Source: a bacterium (GTDB lineage Bacteria > Bacillota_I > Bacilli_A > RF39 > UBA660). From it: a stretch of 33,153 bases of DNA. This document shows positions 4,614 through 17,498 of this stretch, in pieces. Below the pieces are notes generated by a model, which saw nothing but the letters and a program-made list of their open reading frames with translations, made no database searches and was not told the DNA's origin. Position 1 is the stretch's first letter, and the number at the start of each line of letters is the position of its first letter. A program made the position numbers and the translations under genes. Location of the stretch: assembly GCA_030524925.1 (NCBI GenBank), contig JAUNFS010000010.1, positions 1-33,153 on the forward strand. The letters are read 5' to 3'.

Positions 4614-4640
4614 AAGGCTTAAGAAATGTTTAAGCCTTTT
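4612..4640. terminator. Bidirectional terminator between TetR and DUF1848 genes
   Basis: AAAAGGCTTAA (4612-4622) pairs with TTAAGCCTTTT (4630-4640) around a 7-nt loop. T runs on both strands suit termination of the convergent TetR and DUF1848 genes. Confidence 0.85.
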
Positions 4641-5527
4641 TATTTGGTTCTGATTTTAATTATGTCATCATCTTTAATGTGACCAATTAGTAAAGATGAG
4701 TTGTCGTCATGATTTTTAAAATTGGTACTTACAGTTTTTTCATCGTAATTAGCATAGCAGTATTTGCATAAGTGCATGCAGGAATTATAATCACCAATAT
4801 CAACCATCTGCACGCAGGAGCACTTTTTTTCTTTTCTTACGTTTGAGGTTTTATATTTTTTACCAGTTAAATAATAAGCTAGTTCATGAGATAGACATTC
4901 GCCTTTAATAAAGCCGTATTCAGTTAAGTCTTCGTCTTCAAAGCAGGTTTGGATGGTCATATTATTTTCACGGGCTATTTTGCTAAAAGCTAGGCCAATT
5001 TGTTCATAGTCTTCTTTAGTAATAGGACGATATTTTAGAGTGCTTTTGTTATTTATTACATTTTTATATTCGTCCATAAAAGAGATGATTACTCTATTTA
5101 CGTAACCGTTTAACTTTGTACAAAGTTTATTAAAAGCTTTAATGTGATATTCTACGCTATATTTTTCACTTAGAAAGATAGGATCATATCTTAATACGAC
5201 ATTATCAATACCTAGTTTTAAAGATAGTTTTTTTACGCTTTCAATAATTTGGGGTTTATCTATAATATTTGGCTCAATGTCACGGCCGTATGGCGTTATT
5301 GTTACGTGAAATAATATTGGAAATTTTATTTTGTCTAATTTATCTATTATTGGTATTGGATTTTTACTACAAAACATGATTAAATCTACATCGCTAAAGT
5401 TTATTCTACTTATTAGATTTGGGTTGAAAGGATTTCTTACGTCTATAAAGCCCGCATCTACCCTATTTAAAAACCAGTTTGAGTAAAATGCAGGAATGTC
5501 GGTTCGGCCGCTAGCAAATAAAATCAT
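4640..5527 (-). CDS. DUF1848-family protein, putative Fe-S protein
   Basis: 295-residue protein recognised as DUF1848. The N-terminus 'MILFASGRTDIPAFYSNWF' and the segment 'VDLIMFCSKNPIPII' are typical of the family. So is the C-terminal cysteine cluster: 'KKCSCVQMVDIGDYNSC', then 'HLCKYCYANYD'. The CxC and CxxCxxCYA spacing suggests iron-sulfur binding; the fold resembles a radical-SAM-like barrel, but the biochemical role is unknown. The start ATG is preceded by AAGGAG at 8 nt. That ribosome site and about 60 nt upstream lie inside a broken copy of the small-peptide module (5540-5593, other strand). The gene may therefore be transcribed from, or downstream of, the antisense promoter at 5709-5737. 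Confidence 0.8.
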   Translation of the reverse strand: MILFASGRTDIPAFYSNWFLNRVDAGFIDVRNPFNPNLISRINFSDVDLIMFCSKNPIPIIDKLDKIKFPILFHVTITPYGRDIEPNIIDKPQIIESVKKLSLKLGIDNVVLRYDPIFLSEKYSVEYHIKAFNKLCTKLNGYVNRVIISFMDEYKNVINNKSTLKYRPITKEDYEQIGLAFSKIARENNMTIQTCFEDEDLTEYGFIKGECLSHELAYYLTGKKYKTSNVRKEKKCSCVQMVDIGDYNSCMHLCKYCYANYDEKTVSTNFKNHDDNSSLLIGHIKDDDIIKIRTK

Positions 5528-5539
5528 GAATACCGCTCC

Positions 5540-5593
5540 TTAATCATTATTATCTTCCTATTAGTATTATTACTATTCGTAGTTTTAGTATAA
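5540..5593 (+). pseudogene. Decapitated copy of the 27-residue hydrophobic peptide gene
   Basis: Seventeen codons plus stop read 'LIIIIFLLVLLLFVVLV', matching the C-terminal two thirds of the peptides at 8991-9074 and 9453-9536. The N-terminal 'M(N/H)KKDFL', the ribosome site, the 5' UTR and the promoter are missing. Upstream sequence instead belongs to the start of the DUF1848 gene on the other strand. There is no ATG in frame before an upstream TAA. The 3' UTR, antisense promoter and antisense terminator remain intact. Confidence 0.75.
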
Positions 5594-5595
5594 AA

Positions 5596-5702
5596 AGAAA
5601 ATCACCTAACTCAGCAATGATTTAGGTGAAACCAATTTAAAGGCAACACCCAACCTGCTATAATTAGATGTTCCTTTTTTATTTTATGCAAGTTTCCTTG
5701 AC
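5596..5702 (-). ncRNA. Orphan antisense RNA of the small-peptide module, copy 1
   Basis: Predicted transcript of about 107 nt starting near 5702, from a TTGAAA-17-TACAAT promoter. It has the three-part layout of the other two copies. First comes a 5' hairpin with a GAAA loop (CAAG-GAAA-CTTG, near 5691-5703). Then an AU-rich stretch leads into a middle segment complementary to the peptide 3' UTR. Last is a terminator hairpin, TCACCTAA...TTAGGTGA (5602-5629), followed by ATTTTCTTTTT. Its own cis target is broken, so it could act in trans on the related copies or just drive DUF1848 by read-through. Ends are estimates. Confidence 0.55.
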
Positions 5703-5703
5703 A
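5671..5703. repeat. Conserved 33-nt block of the peptide/antisense module, copy 1
   Basis: This 33-nt segment is identical to 9152-9184 and nearly identical to 9634-9663, which has one more T in the T run. It spans the sense terminator T-run and the 5' hairpin of the antisense RNA. The flanking intergenic DNA is not conserved. Confidence 0.85.
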
Positions 5704-5708
5704 AATAC

Positions 5709-5737
5709 ATTGTAACAAAAAAAAGAACTCTTTTCAA
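5709..5737 (-). promoter_or_regulatory. Antisense RNA promoter, copy 1
   Basis: On the minus strand TTGAAA (5732-5737), a 17-nt spacer and TACAAT (5709-5714). It aligns position for position with the antisense promoters at 9190-9218 and 9669-9697. The -35 box falls inside the terminator hairpin of the upstream lipoprotein gene. Confidence 0.7.
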
Positions 5738-5742
5738 GTTCT
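5724..5742 (-). terminator. Terminator of the lipoprotein gene
   Basis: On the minus strand AGAACT (5737-5742) pairs with AGTTCT (5724-5729), followed by eight T. It overlaps the lipoprotein stop codon and also overlaps the antisense promoter -35 region. Confidence 0.65.
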
Positions 5743-6775
5743 AATCCTTTTCAATATAACCACTGATGCCTTTAGTATACATCTCATCAGTTACTGATTT
5801 ATATCTTTCGCCATCATAGTCATCGGTAAAGCCGTTATATGCTTTGTATGTTTCGTTTGTTTCAGTATCATATACTCTTTCATAACCAAGTATCGCATCA
5901 CTTTGTTTTTGACTCATAATATCAAATGATTTATTTCTCTTATTCCAAGAATCCATTATTCCATCACTTATTTGATTACCTATTGCTCTAATTTGTTGGA
6001 AGTTTTTCATGACTGCGTCTTGTTGTTGATTAAATCCATTTATAAAGGTATCTGTAAATTCTAGTGAAGAACAAATAGTATTTAATGTGTCTTGCCAATC
6101 TATAAGTTCATCTTTTGGTGCAGTAATAAAGATAGCGTCATAAACATTTAAGTATTGTATATCTATTTGTTTACCTGAAATTATATTTTCATAAACATAA
6201 TATGGACCAGCATCATATACATAAGCCGTAAATATTCCTTCGCCCTCTTTACCATTTGCATCTTTAAATGTTGCCCTTAACATATCTCCACCTAAACTGC
6301 CTTTACCTAAATTCTCAGTTACAGTAAAATCAGTTAATGTTGGGAATGTAAATGCACTATTATTATTTAAAGTACCCAAATCATTAAATATTTTATAAAA
6401 TCCTTCTGTATCTTTAGTAGCTATTACACTAGTTTTAGCAAACATATTATTTGGATAATATTTTTGTTGCCATCTTTTAGCATCTTCCGACTTATTATAT
6501 CCTTCAGTTTTCATATTAAAGAAGAACTGATAAGTAGGATTGTCTGGATTATATACTTTAATCGTATAATGAATATAATCACCTAATGTATCAACTTTCC
6601 AACCATCTGGCACTTTCATTTTGATTAAACCATTATCATAGTCCGTGAATTTGATTGATTTAGTTTCAGCTTCTTTGATTTTAACATTATTTTCTTTTGT
6701 GATGGTTTTGCCACAACCTGATAGTGCAATAATCATTAAAGCACTAAATAAAATATATAAAGTTTTCTTTTTCAT
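5741..6775 (-). CDS. Lipoprotein of unknown function
   Basis: 344-residue exported lipoprotein. The N-terminus is a short basic stretch, a hydrophobic core and a lipobox 'LSGC' with Cys21 as the predicted lipidated residue. The start is supported by GGAGG four to five nt before the ATG. The mature part is a mixed alpha/beta extracellular domain with 'GLIKMKVPDGWKVD' near the beginning, the kind of beta-strand opening seen in PsbP/Mog1-like and DUF lipoproteins. A helical, Gln-rich C-terminal part (about 245-300) follows. I recognise no catalytic motif. It is a single-gene unit with its own terminator. A solute-binding or envelope-stress role is possible, but nothing in the sequence decides it. 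Confidence 0.75.
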   Translation of the reverse strand: MKKKTLYILFSALMIIALSGCGKTITKENNVKIKEAETKSIKFTDYDNGLIKMKVPDGWKVDTLGDYIHYTIKVYNPDNPTYQFFFNMKTEGYNKSEDAKRWQQKYYPNNMFAKTSVIATKDTEGFYKIFNDLGTLNNNSAFTFPTLTDFTVTENLGKGSLGGDMLRATFKDANGKEGEGIFTAYVYDAGPYYVYENIISGKQIDIQYLNVYDAIFITAPKDELIDWQDTLNTICSSLEFTDTFINGFNQQQDAVMKNFQQIRAIGNQISDGIMDSWNKRNKSFDIMSQKQSDAILGYERVYDTETNETYKAYNGFTDDYDGERYKSVTDEMYTKGISGYIEKD

Positions 6776-8925: not shown

Positions 8926-8948
8926 TGCAAGTAAGGAACGTTTAATAA

Positions 8949-8961
8949 GTTGGGTGGAGCC
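8949..8961 (+). other. 5' UTR fold-back segment, copy 2
   Basis: GTTGGGTGGAGCC in the leader pairs with GGCTACACTCAAC in the 3' UTR (9123-9135): 12 of 13 positions including one G-U. The same arrangement with different bases exists in copy 3. Confidence 0.6.
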
Positions 8962-8990
8962 GAACTTCAATAAGAAGGGAGGCGATAAAG

Positions 8991-9074
8991 ATGAATAAGA
9001 AAGATTTTTTAGTCTTAGCTTTAGTAATTATTATCTTCCTTTTACTATTATTGTTATTTATAGCTTTAATATAA
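8991..9074 (+). CDS. Putative type I toxin: 27-residue hydrophobic peptide, copy 2
   Basis: Starts 'MNKKDFL' and continues as an unbroken hydrophobic helix with 'VIIIFLLLLLLF'. It has a strong ribosome site GGGAGG (8977-8982) at 8 nt spacing. Basic and acidic residues occur only at positions 3-5, so it is predicted to be a single-span membrane peptide with the N-terminus in the cytoplasm. It is flanked by a sense promoter, a sense terminator and an oppositely directed promoter that makes an antisense RNA over the 3' UTR. This is the architecture of type I toxin-antitoxin loci (compare Fst/RNAII, TxpA/RatA, BsrG/SR4, Ibs/Sib), in which excess peptide damages the membrane. The peptide sequence does not resemble those families, so I treat it as a new one. 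Toxicity is inferred, not shown. A small sporulation or regulatory membrane peptide is the alternative. Confidence 0.7.
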   Translation: MNKKDFLVLALVIIIFLLLLLLFIALI

Positions 9075-9183
9075 AAGAAATCCACCTAACTCAGCAATGA
9101 TTTAGGTGGAACCCATATTTTTGGCTACACTCAACAGTGCAATATTGAATGTTCCTTTTTTATTTTATGCAAGTTTCCTTGAC
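9072..9183 (-). ncRNA. Antisense RNA (putative antitoxin), copy 2
   Basis: Predicted transcript of about 112 nt from TSS near 9183. Its 5' hairpin CAAG-GAAA-CTTG has a GNRA loop. A middle hairpin includes GGAACATTCAA...TTGAGTGTAGCC. The terminator hairpin is TCCACCTAA...TTAGGTGGA (9081-9110) with tail TTTCTTTTAT. Two stems contain pairs that are G-U on this strand but C-A on the sense strand, which indicates that selection acts on the antisense RNA. It is fully complementary to the 3' UTR of the peptide mRNA and reaches its stop codon. Ends are estimated from promoter and terminator positions. Confidence 0.6.
9123..9166 (+). terminator. Terminator of small-peptide mRNA, copy 2
   Basis: An imperfect hairpin (GG..ACA.TCAA / TTGA.TGT..CC, 9123-9155) followed by TTTTTTATTTT. 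Its 5' arm is the same segment that can pair with the 5' UTR. Confidence 0.55.
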
Positions 9184-9184
9184 A
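9152..9184. repeat. Conserved 33-nt block of the peptide/antisense module, copy 2
   Basis: Identical to 5671-5703 and nearly identical to 9634-9663. It covers the sense T-run and the antisense 5' hairpin. Confidence 0.85.
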
Positions 9185-9189
9185 TATTC

Positions 9190-9218
9190 ATAGTAACACA
9201 AAAGCAGCTTTTTTACAA
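9190..9218 (-). promoter_or_regulatory. Antisense RNA promoter, copy 2
   Basis: Minus strand TTGTAA (9213-9218), 17-nt spacer, TACTAT (9190-9195). The same elements, spacing and flanks occur in copy 3, and close variants in copy 1. Confidence 0.75.
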
Positions 9219-9356
9219 GTTGGTTTTGGATTATTAAACTATTTAGTGTCTTAAGGGAAGAAGTAGAACAATTTCTAGGGTAAAAGAAATAGTTAGTATA
9301 ATCACTATTAACTAACATAATTTTAATATTTTTTACAAAAATTTTCTATTGTTCGC
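9219..9356. other. Spacer between tandem module copies 2 and 3
   Basis: No open frame is supported. The spacer contains overlapping inverted repeats around a TATAAT: AATAGT/ACTATT (9288-9293/9304-9309) and GTTAG/CTAAC (9292-9296/9312-9316). This could be a regulator site, but no gene starts from it. Confidence 0.35.
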
Positions 9357-9385: not shown

Positions 9386-9407
9386 TTTTACAGGGAAATA
9401 TTTAACT

Positions 9408-9421
9408 GTTGAGTGCTTGCC
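9408..9421 (+). other. 5' UTR fold-back segment, copy 3
   Basis: GTTGAGTGCTTGCC pairs with GGCAAGTACTCAAC in the 3' UTR (9599-9612) over all 14 positions (one G-U). Directly next to it CCTCC (9420-9424) can also pair with the GGAGG ribosome site (9439-9443), so the two pairings compete. Confidence 0.65.
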
Positions 9422-9452
9422 TCCAACTATATAAGGAAGGAGGTTGATAGTT

Positions 9453-9536
9453 ATGCACAAGAAAGATTTTTTAATCTCTTCTTTAATCATTATTATCTTC
9501 TTACTAATAGCCTTACTTTTTACTTTAGTAAAGTAG
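9453..9536 (+). CDS. Putative type I toxin: 27-residue hydrophobic peptide, copy 3
   Basis: Starts 'MHKKDFL' and continues with 'LIIIIFLLIALLF', ending in Lys. It is the same length as copy 2, with identical positions 1, 3-7 and 14-18, and conservative changes elsewhere. The ribosome site AAGGAGG (9437-9443) is near perfect at 9 nt. The gene has its own sense promoter, a hairpin terminator and an antisense promoter, exactly as in copy 2. A membrane-acting toxin is the best guess by analogy with type I systems. No experiment is visible in the sequence. Confidence 0.72.
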   Translation: MHKKDFLISSLIIIIFLLIALLFTLVK

Positions 9537-9546
9537 TAAACTATAT

Positions 9547-9662
9547 AAGAAAAACAGCACTCAATCTAGCATAGATTAAGTGCTTTACCATAAATATGGG
9601 CAAGTACTCAACTCGGCAAAGTTAAGTATTCCCTTTTTTTATTTTATGCAAGTTTCCTTGAC
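9547..9662 (-). ncRNA. Antisense RNA (putative antitoxin), copy 3
   Basis: About 116 nt from TSS near 9662. It has the same GAAA-loop 5' hairpin, then a middle hairpin (9598-9633). The terminator is AGCACTTAATCT/AGATTGAGTGCT (9556-9584, a 12-bp stem with one T-G pair) followed by GTTTTTC. It overlaps the peptide mRNA from its terminator to just past the peptide stop codon. The sequence GTTGAGTACTTGCC inside it mimics the peptide 5' UTR segment. Confidence 0.65.
9598..9640 (+). terminator. Terminator of small-peptide mRNA, copy 3
   Basis: A GGG..GTACT..AACT / AGTT..AGTAT.CCC hairpin (9598-9633) followed by seven T. Its 5' arm is shared with the long-range pairing to the 5' UTR. Confidence 0.65.
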
Positions 9663-9663
9663 A
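9634..9663. repeat. Conserved block of the peptide/antisense module, copy 3
   Basis: The third occurrence of the T-run plus antisense 5' hairpin block also seen at 5671-5703 and 9152-9184. It differs by one extra T. Confidence 0.8.
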
Positions 9664-9668
9664 TATTC

Positions 9669-9697
9669 ATAGTAACACAAAAGTAACTTTTTTACAA
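9669..9697 (-). promoter_or_regulatory. Antisense RNA promoter, copy 3
   Basis: Minus strand TTGTAA (9692-9697), 17-nt spacer, TACTAT (9669-9674). It has the same boxes and spacing as copy 2. Confidence 0.75.
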
Positions 9698-9740
9698 GTT
9701 GATTTTATATTATGTGTATTTTTATTTTTTTCTTAATAAG

Positions 9741-11090: not shown

Positions 11091-11119
11091 AAAGAAGAAA
11101 CTAGTTAAATTTCTTCTTT
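11084..11119 (-). terminator. Terminator of the VWA/MucBP gene
   Basis: Minus strand AAAGAAGAAA (11110-11119) pairs with TTTCTTCTTT (11091-11100), followed by TTCTTT. The stem spans the stop codon. Confidence 0.7.
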
Positions 11120-14100
11120 AAAATTAGTAATAAAGCTATACCTAAAATGCTTGTTCCCATTAGTGAATAATCTAGGATATAATTTTCACTATCAATTCCT
11201 GTATATGGAATTTCAGGCTCTTCAGGAGTTATAGGAGTATCGTCTCCACCTTGTCCCATTACATAAGTATATACGTAAGTTACAATAATATCTTCTTTAG
11301 TATATTTACCCTTTTCTTCCCCAATTACATTTTTTAGTTCATAATCAGTAATAGTTGCAGGACTAGTTTGATAGTCTGTACCTACTTGACCGTTAGTAGT
11401 AGTTTCATCTAATAAGACTTTGCCATCTTCGTCAACATATCTAGTAATAACTTTACCCATATCTTTTTTATAATAGTAAATAACTTCAATTACTTCTTCA
11501 GTAAATTTACCACTTGCATTTTGTGGAGTTTCTACTAAAACATAACCAATAACACTAGCTTCTTTAGTAGTATAATCTTTACTTACTTTTCCATCAATAA
11601 TTTCATCGTCTGCTACTTTAATAGTAGTTCCTTCTTCATAATGATGAACGATTACTTTAGCAGATTTTAATCTATAATAGAATTTTGCTTCTTGAACTTC
11701 ATCAGTTAGAATACCACTTATAGTTCCTTCACTTTCAACAAATTCATAGTCGCCTAAGTCAGTGTGAGCGCTAAATGAAAATTTATCATCTAATTTTCCA
11801 GTTGCTACATCATCTTTAAATAGTTTATCTGTAGTTTTATTGCCATTTTCATCAATAATATAATGATGAGCTATAGCACCAGCACTATCTAATTTTTCAT
11901 AGTAGAAAGTATATTCTTTAGGTTCTACTGTAAACTCTCCAGTATATGATGTTTGATCTACTGCTTTATATTTAGGAATATCTATAGCACTGATATTGAA
12001 TCTTTCAGTTACTTTACCATTAAGTTCACTGTCAGGTGCTAGAGTTTTATTAGTTCCTTTTTCTACATAGTGAATAATTATTTTAGTATCTTTTAAACTA
12101 TAATAGAATGTGATTACATTACCACTACGCGTTAATTGAATAGCTTGCTCTTTAGCACTATCTAAATTGTAGTTAGCAAATACCTTATTATCTTTTTCAT
12201 CTTTAGCATAAGCCGTGTAATTATCATTAATTCTACCTGTATCTTTAATTGGATTAATTAAATCTATAATATTACCATCTTTGATAGTTACGTATCTTAC
12301 AGTAACGTCTGTCATCTTTAATTGATAGTAGAAAACAGCTTCTTGTCTTGTGCTAGATAGAGTTCCACTTGTTGTGCCTTCACTTTCAACAAATTCATAA
12401 TCGCCTAATCCTTCAGATTTAGGACTAAATGAGAATGGTGTACCAATTTTACCTGTTACCTCATCATCATTAAATAGTTTTCTATCAGTTTTTTTACCAT
12501 TGTTATCAATGATATAGTGAAATGCTACTGCTCCAGCACTTTCAGCTTTTTCATAGTAGAATGTGTATTCTCTAGTATTTAACTTAAATTCAACGTTTTG
12601 AGTGTTACTACCAACTACAACATAGTCAGTAATATCTTTAGAGAAGATGTCTCTTTTTTCAGTTACTTTACCTGTGAAAGTATCATCATCTGCTAATTTT
12701 TTACCTGTACCTTTTTCTCTATGATGAACAATGATTTTAGAATCTTTAAGTTCATAATAGAAATTAATAACATTTTCTTTGTTATTCAGTGTGATAGTTT
12801 CTGGACTATTGCTTACTAAATTATAATTATTTAAAGTTAAAGCGTGTTCTATAACCTTATCCCCAATATATAAATCTTCACCACTAGCATTTGTGGAAAC
12901 TTGTTTGCTTGGTGCAACTTGATTGTTAGTACCTTTTTCTAAATAGTTAACAGTGTAAGTTGCCTTAACACCTTTGACATTAATAGTTACAGTTGCAACG
13001 TCTGACTTTGCGTAAGTCTTATTACCATTTTTATCTGTGATAGTAGTTTTAATATAATACGTGAAATTATCACTGCCACGGAAATTTAAATTTGGATTAT
13101 ATTTAAGTGATCCATCTTGATTAAGATCTAATGAACCATATTTTGTATCAGTAACTATAATGATTTCATCTAAAACAGTTCTTTCGCCGTCTTCTTGTTT
13201 GCCATTATAATCATTTGACGTAATGCCATCATTTGCATCTACTACTAATTCCTTGTTAGTTTCTGTGTCATAATTATCATCTTTTGTTCTTGATGCTATA
13301 GGCGCAACTGGATCAATTAAATCTTCGCTAATCTTACCATCAACGTTTTCATAGAACTTATTACCATCACTGGCAGTACCAGTTACTGTAGCACCATTAT
13401 TAGTATACATACTACCATAATAATTATCTTTAGCAGTTACTGTAAATTCTAACTCTTCTGGTTCTTTAGAAGATAATTCATCAAATTTATAAGTAATGAT
13501 TGTTTGTTTATCTTCGTCAGTAGTAATTTCTACTTTATCACCATACTTTGCTTTTAAAGCTTCAGTATCAACTGTGAATGTATTTGGAACAACGTCTCTA
13601 ATAGTTAAGTTTTTAGCAACAATTTCCATATCTTTTGATACAGCAGCAAATGCTTCATTTAATTTAGCTGTGTCACTTGCGTCAAAGTAGCTACCACCAT
13701 TTTTTACAATTGATTTTAAGAATTTTTCAGCTTCTTCGTTAGTAATGGTATTACCTCTCCAATCTGTTGTAGTTATACCAAAACCGATTGAGTATATTTT
13801 TCCTTTGAATGATTCTGTTTCTTTTTTTGCTGCTTCACTTGGTTTCATATAAAATCCATCTTGGCAAGTTTCACTTTCATAAGTGGTTTCTCTCCAGTGT
13901 TTTCTATAGCCAACGTATTCACATCTATATGTTTCTTTGCTTTTATAATCGTAGTAATCAATATATCCATCGGCTACATCTTGACCAAGATTATTTTGAT
14001 AAGTTTTTGTTGCTACAAAATCATAAGCATATAAATCTTCATGAATGTCTACACGACCATGACCATGTTCAATACCGTTTTTATCAGTGTAATATGTTGG

Positions 14101-14676
14101 CACGCCGTCTGATAAAACGATTAAGCTCTTTTCATTATCTGCTTTTGTAAATAAATCTTTGGCTATACTGATTCCAAGTTGTACGTTAGTACCACCATTA
14201 GCTGTTTTACCAGAAACGCAATCTTTTAGAGTTGTAGCATTATCATTTAAAACACATACTTCACTTTTATTGGTATTATCCTTATCAGAATACCATACTA
14301 TACCGATTTTAATCTTTCCAGCATTTTCTTCTGTTAAAAGACTATCAATGAAATTTTCAGCAGCGTCCTTTAATGTTTCAATTTTATTTTTACTAGAACC
14401 GCTTATTCCTTCATCCATACTACCAGAAGCATCTAACACTAAAACGATTTCTCTATCTTTTTGGGTAGTTATAGTGTAAGGATTACCACTTACTGTTATT
14501 TTAACTTTAGCACTTCTGCTAGTTTCATCGCCAATACGTTCTGCAGTTTTAGTTGCAGTAACTTTACCAGCGTTTGGATTAGCATCAGCAAATACAACAA
14601 AAGCATTACTAAATATAGATGTTATAGTTAAGACTAATGCCATAAATAACTGACCTAAATTTTTTAATTTTTTCAT
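11101..14676 (-). CDS. Sortase-anchored VWA-domain adhesin with eight MucBP-like repeats
   Basis: 1191-residue surface protein. It has a signal peptide (1-30, cleavage after 'VVFA'). A von Willebrand A domain follows at about 77-350 with full MIDAS: D82-A-S84-G-S86, T163 in 'GGTNVQLG' and D190 in 'LSDGVPT'. A Cys252/Cys271 insertion and the Cys141/Cys153 pair may form disulfides. Next come a beta domain (350-450) and a cadherin/Big_9-like domain (475-568, 'LKYNPNLNFRGSDNFTYYI'). Eight MucBP-type repeats follow (571 to about 1135), each ending in 'FYYxLK' or 'xYYYKK'. At the C-terminus are a Pro-rich linker, sorting motif IPYTG (1156-1160), a TM helix and a 'KKKFN' tail. Similar proteins bind host glycans or matrix, or act as pilus tips. 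It lies 34 nt after the sortase gene in one operon. The start has GGGAGG upstream. Confidence 0.92.
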   Translation of the reverse strand: MKKLKNLGQLFMALVLTITSIFSNAFVVFADANPNAGKVTATKTAERIGDETSRSAKVKITVSGNPYTITTQKDREIVLVLDASGSMDEGISGSSKNKIETLKDAAENFIDSLLTEENAGKIKIGIVWYSDKDNTNKSEVCVLNDNATTLKDCVSGKTANGGTNVQLGISIAKDLFTKADNEKSLIVLSDGVPTYYTDKNGIEHGHGRVDIHEDLYAYDFVATKTYQNNLGQDVADGYIDYYDYKSKETYRCEYVGYRKHWRETTYESETCQDGFYMKPSEAAKKETESFKGKIYSIGFGITTTDWRGNTITNEEAEKFLKSIVKNGGSYFDASDTAKLNEAFAAVSKDMEIVAKNLTIRDVVPNTFTVDTEALKAKYGDKVEITTDEDKQTIITYKFDELSSKEPEELEFTVTAKDNYYGSMYTNNGATVTGTASDGNKFYENVDGKISEDLIDPVAPIASRTKDDNYDTETNKELVVDANDGITSNDYNGKQEDGERTVLDEIIIVTDTKYGSLDLNQDGSLKYNPNLNFRGSDNFTYYIKTTITDKNGNKTYAKSDVATVTINVKGVKATYTVNYLEKGTNNQVAPSKQVSTNASGEDLYIGDKVIEHALTLNNYNLVSNSPETITLNNKENVINFYYELKDSKIIVHHREKGTGKKLADDDTFTGKVTEKRDIFSKDITDYVVVGSNTQNVEFKLNTREYTFYYEKAESAGAVAFHYIIDNNGKKTDRKLFNDDEVTGKIGTPFSFSPKSEGLGDYEFVESEGTTSGTLSSTRQEAVFYYQLKMTDVTVRYVTIKDGNIIDLINPIKDTGRINDNYTAYAKDEKDNKVFANYNLDSAKEQAIQLTRSGNVITFYYSLKDTKIIIHYVEKGTNKTLAPDSELNGKVTERFNISAIDIPKYKAVDQTSYTGEFTVEPKEYTFYYEKLDSAGAIAHHYIIDENGNKTTDKLFKDDVATGKLDDKFSFSAHTDLGDYEFVESEGTISGILTDEVQEAKFYYRLKSAKVIVHHYEEGTTIKVADDEIIDGKVSKDYTTKEASVIGYVLVETPQNASGKFTEEVIEVIYYYKKDMGKVITRYVDEDGKVLLDETTTNGQVGTDYQTSPATITDYELKNVIGEEKGKYTKEDIIVTYVYTYVMGQGGDDTPITPEEPEIPYTGIDSENYILDYSLMGTSILGIALLLILKKKFN

Positions 14677-14710: not shown

Positions 14711-15409
14711 TTAAAGATTGGTTATTTTCCTAGCGCTAACTATTAAATAATCTCTTGTTCCATCTAGTAAACAAGTTTGTAAGATTAAAATATCGTCAGT
14801 TTCGGAAATTTCAGTTTCGTCATTATATAACGCATCTTTTCTTAATTTTTTAATGTGACCCAAGAAGTTATTAGTTTTTAATATCATGTGCTCAGTTTCT
14901 TTGGTTCTTTTTACTGAAAATACTTGGTATGTAGTAGTTCCGTTTTCGGTTTCTATATAAATTAAATTATTTTTTTTAGTAAATTCATTATCTAAATATA
15001 ACCTTAAAGTTTTAAAAGCTACATCATATTTATTTGAATTATGGCCATATATATTTATTTGTTTATCGTCAAACGTGTTTCGGTAGTCCATAAATACTGC
15101 ACCTATTTTACTTTTTTCTTTTTTTAATGTATGTGATAAATAATATGAATTATTTGATGGTTTAACAAATAATGTATTAATCTCAGTGCCAGGTATATAG
15201 ATACTACCAATTATGTCATCATTTTGATATTCTTTTCTAAAGTTATAATATTTTTCTTTTAAGTTTTCTTCTTTAGTTTCTTCAAGTTGTCCTTCTAATG
15301 CGATGATATTTAGTTCTTCTTCATTATTTTTATGAATAATAAGCATAGATGATGAGCTAATAAATAGAATTAAACAAAAACTAAGTAAAAAATAATACCA
15401 CTTCTTCAT
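14711..15409 (-). CDS. Class B-like sortase
   Basis: 232-residue membrane-anchored transpeptidase. It has an N-terminal signal anchor (about 5-25) followed by a charged linker and the sortase barrel: 'IIGSIYIPGTEINTLFV', 'YYLSHTLKKEKSKIGAVFMD', catalytic His123 in 'INIYGHNS', Cys213 in 'LILQTCLLDG' and Arg219 in 'TRDYLIVSARKI'. The G-x-I-x-I-P and 'YGHN' forms and the C-x5-R-x-Y-L-x-V end are those of class B sortases. It should cut between Thr and Gly of its substrates' motif and link them to the wall. It is first gene of an operon with the VWA/MucBP protein and is flanked by the beta-helix protein; both carry IPYTG, so they are the obvious substrates. Classic sortase B prefers NPQTN, so specificity here appears shifted. 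The ribosome site is GGGGG before the ATG. Confidence 0.9.
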   Translation of the reverse strand: MKKWYYFLLSFCLILFISSSSMLIIHKNNEEELNIIALEGQLEETKEENLKEKYYNFRKEYQNDDIIGSIYIPGTEINTLFVKPSNNSYYLSHTLKKEKSKIGAVFMDYRNTFDDKQINIYGHNSNKYDVAFKTLRLYLDNEFTKKNNLIYIETENGTTTYQVFSVKRTKETEHMILKTNNFLGHIKKLRKDALYNDETEISETDDILILQTCLLDGTRDYLIVSARKITNL

Positions 15410-15472: not shown

Positions 15473-15496
15473 AGATAACTCGTTTACAAGGACTAT

Positions 15497-15537
15497 ATAC
15501 TAAAGGATTGTAGTGATTTTGTCAATATTTAATATTG
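15497..15537 (-). promoter_or_regulatory. Sortase operon promoter with overlapping palindrome
   Basis: Minus strand TTGACA (15520-15525), 17-nt spacer, TAGTAT (15497-15502). A perfect palindrome, CAATATT-A-AATATTG (minus strand; 15523-15537), overlaps the -35. The same promoter and palindrome recur at 17439-17479. Confidence 0.75.
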
Positions 15538-15556
15538 GAAATTTTGAGATTTTGAG

Positions 15557-15582
15557 CATAAAAAAACTAGTTGCCTAGTTTT
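15557..15582 (-). terminator. Terminator of the beta-helix surface protein gene
   Basis: Minus strand AAAACTAG-GCAA-CTAGTTTT (15563-15582) followed by TTT. It overlaps the stop codon. Confidence 0.8.
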
Positions 15583-17404
15583 AATTGAATTTTTTACGAA
15601 TTAGTATTAAGTATGCTAGTGATGTGATACTCATTGTTGTTAAAGTGCTATATTCACATGTACTTTCTTCTTCTATTCCTGTGTATGGAATTTCTGGTAC
15701 TTCTGGTGTAACTGGTGTATCATCGCCACCTTCACCCATTACATATTCGTATACATATGTTACATAGATGTCTTTAATTGTCATCTTACCTGTAACATTT
15801 CCTTCAATATGATTTAGTTCATAACCATAAATTTCTTTTAATAAAGTTTGATAGTTATCATTAACATAACCATTGATAGTTTCTTCTTCAGCTATAACTT
15901 TACCGTCCATATCAACATAACGAACTATTACTTTAGCTTTTAGATTATGAGCTGCTTTAATACTAAATCCGGTTTCATATTTTCCTGATTTAACGTCATC
16001 AACGTGAATTTCTTCTTCTTTGTCAGTATGAGCATTCCATCTATTATCTTTACTATCATCATACCAGTTGTTGATTTTATCATCACAGTCATCCAAGATC
16101 CAGTTATCTTTAACGTCTTTAAAGTCAATAACAGCGCCTTCTGCATTATAAATATCATCAGCAGCTTCTAGAGCATGATTGTTATAAATGTTAACGTCTT
16201 CACCAATTACAAGTGTACCAACATTATAGATACCACCACCAAGATTAGCACCAATGTTGTTTTTATTTACTAAACCTGTACCATTATTAGTAATTTCACC
16301 AGCTAGAATTGTTAAATTACCAATCTTTTGAGCAGTATAAATACCTGATCCAGCATTATTTTTAATTTCTACTTTAGCGCCTTTTTCAATTGTACTTGTG
16401 TAAGTTCCATTTCCTTGGAAGAAAATACCGCCATTTTTTGTTGGAACATCTGCTTTGGTACCATTACTATTTGCGATTAATGTACAAGTACTATCAACAT
16501 TTAATACTCTAGTCCAAATACCACTTAAGCCATTATTGTTAGCTGTTAGTGTAGAGTTATTGGTCATATCTATTCTCCAAGCTGAAATACCCCAAGCACC
16601 ATTATTATTAAATGTTACATTACTATTATTCTTAACAGTAAAGTATGTATTATTTGAACCATTTCCAGTACTATTAATTACTTTTACTGTACTGTTATCA
16701 AATGTAGCATAGAATGTTCCAGTAAATCCTGAACGGTTATTATCAGATATAAATGTTGAATTTAATAAATTAACATTATATCCACCGTTGCCGCCGTCCC
16801 ACTCTAAAGCGTCTTGTTTATAATTTTTGATAATTAAAGTTGAATTAGTTAAATTTAACTTATTATTACTGCAAAAATAGATTGCATGAGCGTTGCCAGC
16901 ACCTTCACCGTCTAGAGTTAGCTTAGCATTTTCTAAATTTAATACTGCGTCTTTTGAAGCACAGATTGTCATCCAGTTCCATTCAGCTGTATATGGAGTT
17001 GAACCTATACCTTTGATATTCACTGTTACATCTTTAAATGTTAAAGCTGCAGCCCATAGAGCGATTCCTTTGTCTTCAAATGTAAGAGTGTATTCTTTTG
17101 AACCATCTATTATTAAGTTTTTAGATAAGTTCAAACCTTTTGTTGTTGCATTATCAAGTAATTTAATAGTGTCACCAGCATTAGCTGCATTTACAGCTTC
17201 ATCAAATGTTTCATACATAACTTCATTTATTGATGCTACGTATTTTATTTCTTGAACAACAGGTTCTTCATTTAATTGTGCTTCTTCCTCTTTTACTTCT
17301 TTAATTTCTTCTATTTGTTCTTCTTGCACAGTTTCTGTATCGGCACTAACATACATAACTGGCATAGATAGAACTAATAAAACTGTTAAAAACCATTTTT
17401 TCAT
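15581..17404 (-). CDS. Sortase-anchored beta-helix surface protein with one MucBP repeat
   Basis: 607-residue exported protein. The signal peptide (1-21, 'VMYVSA') is followed by an acidic Glu-rich linker (22-50). A right-handed beta-helix/pectin-lyase-like region (about 55-430) has Asn ladders such as 'NNSNVTFNNNG', 'NNSTLTANNNG' and 'SNGTKADVPTKNGG'. After a Trp/Asp-rich segment comes one MucBP-type repeat (about 480-550, 'KVIVRYVDMDGKVIAEE'). The C-terminal 'MGEGGDDTP' linker, IPYTG (572-576), TM helix and 'RKKFN' tail match the VWA protein almost residue for residue. It is probably a polysaccharide- or host-binding adhesin; no polysaccharide-lyase catalytic set is evident. It is transcribed alone from a promoter twin to that of the sortase operon. 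AGGAGG precedes the start. Confidence 0.88.
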   Translation of the reverse strand: MKKWFLTVLLVLSMPVMYVSADTETVQEEQIEEIKEVKEEEAQLNEEPVVQEIKYVASINEVMYETFDEAVNAANAGDTIKLLDNATTKGLNLSKNLIIDGSKEYTLTFEDKGIALWAAALTFKDVTVNIKGIGSTPYTAEWNWMTICASKDAVLNLENAKLTLDGEGAGNAHAIYFCSNNKLNLTNSTLIIKNYKQDALEWDGGNGGYNVNLLNSTFISDNNRSGFTGTFYATFDNSTVKVINSTGNGSNNTYFTVKNNSNVTFNNNGAWGISAWRIDMTNNSTLTANNNGLSGIWTRVLNVDSTCTLIANSNGTKADVPTKNGGIFFQGNGTYTSTIEKGAKVEIKNNAGSGIYTAQKIGNLTILAGEITNNGTGLVNKNNIGANLGGGIYNVGTLVIGEDVNIYNNHALEAADDIYNAEGAVIDFKDVKDNWILDDCDDKINNWYDDSKDNRWNAHTDKEEEIHVDDVKSGKYETGFSIKAAHNLKAKVIVRYVDMDGKVIAEEETINGYVNDNYQTLLKEIYGYELNHIEGNVTGKMTIKDIYVTYVYEYVMGEGGDDTPVTPEVPEIPYTGIEEESTCEYSTLTTMSITSLAYLILIRKKFN

Positions 17405-17438
17405 TCAAAACCCTCCTAAATAATTTTTACGAGACTAT

Positions 17439-17479
17439 ATACTAAAGTAAAGTGTTAAGTTTGTCAATATTTAATATTG
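17439..17479 (-). promoter_or_regulatory. Promoter of the beta-helix gene with the shared palindrome
   Basis: Minus strand TTGACA (17462-17467), 17-nt spacer, TAGTAT (17439-17444), then ATAGTC as in the sortase promoter. CAATATT-A-AATATTG (minus strand) lies at 17465-17479 over the -35. Confidence 0.75.
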
Positions 17480-17498
17480 GAAATTTTAAAAAATAGTA

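Follow-up and report, generated by a model that had tools for sequence, protein, structure and literature searches.

The window, the entire 33,153-nucleotide stretch of DNA analysed here, contains three copies of a small module with genes on both strands: the intact copies 2 (8940-9220) and 3 (9410-9700) and a truncated one, copy A (5540-5740), which lies between the genes for a DUF1848 protein and a predicted lipoprotein (Table 1). In copies 2 and 3 a ribosome site precedes a hydrophobic frame of 27 residues, which is followed by a 3′ UTR; the opposite strand holds an antisense unit that has both promoter and terminator. In the alignment with these two, the homology of copy A sets in abruptly at 5540 and extends to about 5740, and its match to copy 2 in a within-genome search (E=1.3e-46) is far above chance. 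On the toxin side the homology ends at approximately codon 10, leaving an in-frame tail (TTA ATC ATT ATT ATC TTC CTA TTA GTA TTA TTA CTA TTC GTA GTT TTA GTA, then TAA); nothing is left of the toxin start codon, its ribosome site or the sense promoter, and copy A is not a complete type I module. Judged by its sequence it would be a solo (orphan) antitoxin RNA gene, with a complete antisense transcription unit and no cognate toxin. The alignment with copies 2 and 3 bears out what a sequence-only reading had proposed for 5540-5737, namely a decayed toxin beside a complete antisense unit, down to the 17 C-terminal codons and 3′ UTR that are left, the N-terminus, ribosome site and sense promoter that are gone, and the antisense promoter boxes, GAAA hairpin and terminator that are intact. 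The same reading had noticed a block identical to copy 2, which does exist and measures 36 nt (ATGTTCC...TTGACA) rather than 33. As this block is conserved throughout the bacterial family, it is no special evidence for kinship between copies A and 2; over the terminator hairpin, another 26 nt are identical in the two copies.

Table 1. Features of copy A, the adjoining genes and the intact copies in the window.
Feature	Positions	Strand	Basis
DUF1848 gene (PF08902), reading in the direction of the orphan antisense gene and lying downstream of it	4640..5527	-	
Break point: toxin tail immediately adjoining the DUF1848 ribosome site (5533-5539) and start codon (5525-5527)	5525..5540	-	
Toxin-frame remnant, T1 subtype: last 17 codons and stop, without start	5540..5593	+	alignment
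Antisense intrinsic terminator: stem-loop 5602-5629 and U-run 5592-5601	5592..5629	-	family-wide covariation
Orphan antisense (antitoxin) RNA, predicted, ~110 nt	5594..5702	-	inferred from promoter and terminator
Sense-mRNA terminator remnant, central stem of the antisense RNA	5642..5680	+	
GAAA-capped hairpin CAAG-GAAA-CUUG, antisense 5′ end	5689..5700	-	
Antisense promoter TTGAAA-17-TACAAT with extended -10 TG (10/12)	5709..5737	-	
Terminator-like hairpin immediately past the lipoprotein gene; its loop holds the antisense -35	5717..5742	-	
Gene for a predicted lipoprotein, lying upstream of the antisense gene	5741..6775	-	
Copy 2 intact toxin peptide (MNKKDFLVLALVIIIFLLLLLLFIALI)	8991..9074	+	
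Copy 2 antisense unit	9070..9215	-	
Copy 3 intact toxin peptide (MHKKDFLISSLIIIIFLLIALLFTLVK)	9453..9536	+	
Copy 3 antisense unit	9545..9700	-	

The terminator-like hairpin around the antisense -35 is found at the same place in most copies, with its U-run ending at the -10, and could be a terminator-promoter composite that isolates the antisense gene from upstream transcription. The region of the sense-mRNA terminator is also predicted to pair with the mRNA 5′ end in intact copies. At 8940-9166 and 9404-9646, and in L003, the 5′ end of the toxin mRNA (GGAAC..GTTGGGTG..) comes close to being a reverse complement of the 3′ end of the same molecule, and the full-length toxin mRNAs are predicted to close by a long-range 5′-3′ stem, as in aapA1. 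Inside the copy A remnant, the plus strand carries a promoter-like site (TTTAAA-17-TATAAT with TG, 5636-5664) whose TATAAT stretch is absent from copy 2 and which is possibly a chance gain. Two further copies of the module, with open toxin frames, lie beside a tRNA-Ala gene on another contig of the same genome (C6). Elsewhere in the window, large, repeat-rich surface proteins bearing anchor-like motifs (IPYTG) at the C terminus are encoded at 11101-14676 and 15581-17404 and adjoin a sortase-like gene (14711-15409), and a 55-nt repeat (87%; 15491-15545 and 17433-17487) upstream of predicted sortase-like and surface-protein genes is perhaps a shared promoter or regulatory site.

The module is widespread, being present in 113 of the 145 genera of the bacterial family in a DNA search of genomes that are mostly incomplete assemblies. 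The antisense core alone has matches in 66 genera, and its reversed control pattern has none. Across the 138 antisense-core copies with enough context to be examined, one common antisense architecture accompanies at least five subtypes of toxin peptide of 25-30 aa, with N-terminal charged residues and a single hydrophobic stretch; a short hydrophobic frame (~24-31 aa) with a start codon occurs in 103 of the 138, most with a clear ribosome site. A promoter and terminator for the antisense gene are recognized from sequence in 96 of the 106 intact copies, and 11 of 23 base pairs of the antisense RNA show covariation in an alignment of 38 T1 and T2 copies. By these sequence features the intact copies combine two hallmarks of type I systems, a conserved short hydrophobic peptide and an overlapping antisense gene with its own promoter and terminator, and the module looks like a type I toxin-antitoxin system of the 3′-overlapping arrangement, with a peptide that would be toxic. 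Searches of Pfam, NCBIfam and PDB sequences with the peptides give no match above cut-off, and Rfam at a low threshold gives only chance-level matches for copies 2 and 3 and the remnant; lacking a match above cut-off in any of Pfam, NCBIfam and Rfam, the family is uncatalogued. Tandem arrays of at least three modules are seen in G138 (C6 and C8, L171-L181) and G028 (C16, L223-L225), and G138 has 13 antisense-core matches, several with broken toxins.

Loss of the toxin is not peculiar to copy A. An intact toxin is missing in 32 of the 138 antisense-core copies (23%, about a fifth), a count that classes four borderline cases as intact and that comes from copies picked by their antisense core, which favours preserved antisense genes and under-counts losses that began with the antisense. 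The damage takes the form of deleted toxin heads (the window copy, L156, L116), lost start codons (L136, L195, L114, L218), nonsense or frameshift changes (L132, L213, L235) and complete erosion of the toxin (L111, L144, L187, L214, L217). Close relatives are affected as well: in a copy from the same genus (G003) ATA replaces the toxin ATG, and in the sister species G001 the toxin heads of both copies are broken, one of them at the same tRNA-Ala site that carries intact copies in the source genome. With 32 of 138 copies lacking an intact toxin, those of the sister species included, orphan antitoxins are a recurrent process of which copy A is one case.

The antisense genes left behind by these breaks decay with age as a class. 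The terminator is kept in 30 of 32 broken copies versus 105 of 106 intact ones, a full promoter and terminator are found in 22 of the 32 versus 96 of the 106, and promoter losses are commoner in orphans than in intact copies for both the -10 (p=0.011) and the -35 (p=0.007). Orphan antisense genes score below the cross-validated scores of intact copies against the antisense profile (p=0.008), and their scores drop as the toxin erodes (rho 0.46, p=0.009). Copy A stands at the 30th percentile of intact copies by antisense score. Its dead toxin tail has diverged from intact T1 copies exactly as far as these have from one another (0.728 and 0.726), and its antisense part likewise shows 0.767 against intact T1 copies and 0.761 among them. 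The dead tail thus shows no relaxed constraint, which argues that the break is recent, and a recent break means that the intact antisense of copy A needs no selective explanation; a search for selection on it after toxin loss found no excess conservation over the dead tail. The earlier description of this antisense RNA as maintained is not supported, given divergence at the level of intact copies in tail and antisense part and the decay of orphans as a class.

Taken together, the data make it fairly likely that copy A is a recently 5′-truncated copy of a multi-copy type I toxin-antitoxin-like module whose antisense persists mainly because the break is young. A rearrangement would have removed the toxin head, ribosome site and sense promoter, leaving an antisense RNA still made from a sigma-70 promoter with an extended -10 and ended at an intrinsic terminator. 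This RNA would have no cognate toxin and would owe its persistence chiefly to the youth of the break; if expressed, it may pair with the copy 2 mRNA as a redundant second antitoxin, and it would be expected to erode eventually like the other orphans of the family. Copy A is most likely a recent relic and, judged from its promoter and terminator, probably still transcribed.

The history of the site can be compared with that of relatives. In G001 (L014), the closest relative with the locus, the gene order is Coat_F, lipoprotein, DUF1697, YbaK and DUF1848, and the source genome has the module remnant between lipoprotein and DUF1848 where G001 has DUF1697 and YbaK. A simple deletion of DUF1697-YbaK from the source genome was considered and rejected, as YbaK copies are found on its contigs C18 and C36; on C18 (G000:C18:9739-10488) a DUF1697 gene broken into fragments that lie in different frames stands before the YbaK-type gene, and the second YbaK copy is on C36. 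Among the relatives' loci compared, no intact ancestor was found at the lipoprotein-DUF1848 syntenic site. The absence of a larger module from related genomes, which the sequence-only reading had named as counter-evidence, is half borne out: none is present at the syntenic site of G001, while in another genus (G057) an intact module with the same orientation does closely precede DUF1848. As an orthologous intact ancestor the G057 module was rejected, because the genes on its other flank differ and because three of about 50 other DUF1848 loci are near a module, by our estimate roughly the chance level for so abundant an element.

Although the class as a whole decays, a good antisense gene survives in about half of the orphans with the greatest erosion (L111, L197, L217 and L144 among them), and so many highly eroded orphans with good antisense genes suggest that some could be under selection. 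That a subset of toxin-less antisense genes, copy A included, is selectively kept as trans-acting antitoxins or captured promoter-leaders, so that a family-wide standing pool of orphan RNAs insulates cells against their own type I toxins, is nonetheless improbable. The related proposal for copy A alone, that its RNA acts against addiction, being kept since it silences the copy 2 toxin mRNA in trans and thereby makes loss of copy 2's own antisense tolerable, is equally unlikely. With mRNA ends set at the terminator and kissing-loop kinetics left out of the energies, cofolding pairs the orphan antisense with the copy 2 mRNA at -32.9 kcal/mol, against -5.6 +/- 2.8 for shuffled RNA, and the perfect 26-nt block shared with copy 2 lies over the hairpin loop. 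The cognate pair is far stronger, however, at -93.6 (cognate antisense/mRNA pairs range from -94 to -129), and the mRNAs of copies 3, D and E are left unbound (-4.7, -6.4 and -2.5). Of the pairing with copies 2 and 3 that the sequence-only reading had put forward for checking, the first is therefore predicted and the second is not, and its idea of trans action on both other copies narrows to copy 2, which ranks 11th of 26 T1 mRNAs as a partner of the orphan RNA, behind several from other genera. Since the orphan RNA pairs equally well or better with mRNAs of other genera, nothing suggests co-adaptation between copies A and 2. Precedents from paralogous type I systems, where cross-action is often abolished by small differences, also speak against it: antitoxin action in C. 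difficile is as a rule confined to the cognate antitoxin or one nearly identical to it (PMC6563280), and 15 nt of complementarity do not enable OrzP to act on zorO (PMC3919570).

A role in the expression of DUF1848 is quite unlikely. Here the antisense promoter would drive DUF1848 by read-through, with the old antisense RNA serving as a leader and its terminator as an attenuator openable by toxin mRNA pairing. The antisense unit and DUF1848 do lie on the same strand, with approximately 50 nt from the U-run to the ribosome site and just one weak alternative promoter-like site between them, in the toxin tail, but the intact terminator (-13.7 kcal/mol) stands between the antisense promoter and the gene. 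Orphan L111 likewise has a co-directional gene start approximately 150 nt from its core, although this gene seems to come with a -10 of its own. Near orphans, co-directional gene starts are more frequent than near intact copies (8 of 32 versus 10 of 106, p=0.03, uncorrected), an enrichment that is weak and partly expected after loss of the toxin head. It is very improbable that the antisense gene of copy A merely looks intact and is no longer transcribed, since the several promoter-region bases that set it apart from copies 2 and 3 (GACAAATACAT) occur naturally as a frequent variant of the core across the family and TACAAT is nearer the -10 consensus than TACTAT, even though promoters are lost in orphans as a class.

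Copy A itself is probably an ordinary relic, and it leads to a widespread, multi-copy and uncatalogued type I-like family in uncultured Bacilli, the source being a gut-type bacterium. The broken copies, about a fifth of the family sample, suffice to measure how such modules die, and the order of decay is that the toxin breaks while the antisense is complete and the antisense erodes afterwards. Whether orphan RNA antitoxins are selected or left over becomes a question testable with population data.

Among known systems, TxpA/RatA, BsrG/SR4 and Fst/RNAII of Gram-positive bacteria resemble the module in the convergent arrangement of toxin mRNA and antisense RNA with a 3′ overlap, in the small hydrophobic peptide and in the presence of several loci per genome (PMC4147584). 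No sequence or covariance-model match to these three rises above cut-off; the Rfam score for BsrG is 14.1 bits against a cut-off of 55, with no significant sequence match. The module peptide has 25-30 aa whereas TxpA has 59, and the GAAA-capped 5′ hairpin and the -35 inside a terminator-like hairpin set the module apart from all three. AapA/IsoA of Helicobacter pylori offers a peptide that is similarly short and hydrophobic, at 30 aa, and a full-length mRNA whose folding blocks translation (PMC8322730), much as the 5′ and 3′ ends of the module mRNA are predicted to pair; it belongs to an unrelated phylum, and no homology to the module has been shown. RCd11/RCd12 of C. difficile and SprF of S. 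aureus are, like the copies described here, type I antitoxins that occur as paralogues within one genome and show limited cross-action (PMC6563280), and unlike copy A they have intact cognate toxins. The direct precedent for copy A is NikS (IsoB, HPnc4160) of H. pylori, which is regarded as a descendant of a degenerated type I system (PMC8322730, PMC8687705) and is likewise an antisense RNA left from a probably degenerated module (PMC8322730). NikS is strongly conserved and has known targets, whereas copy A is without demonstrated conservation or target. The NikS precedent makes a new function of an orphan antitoxin RNA a possibility already known rather than a new category.
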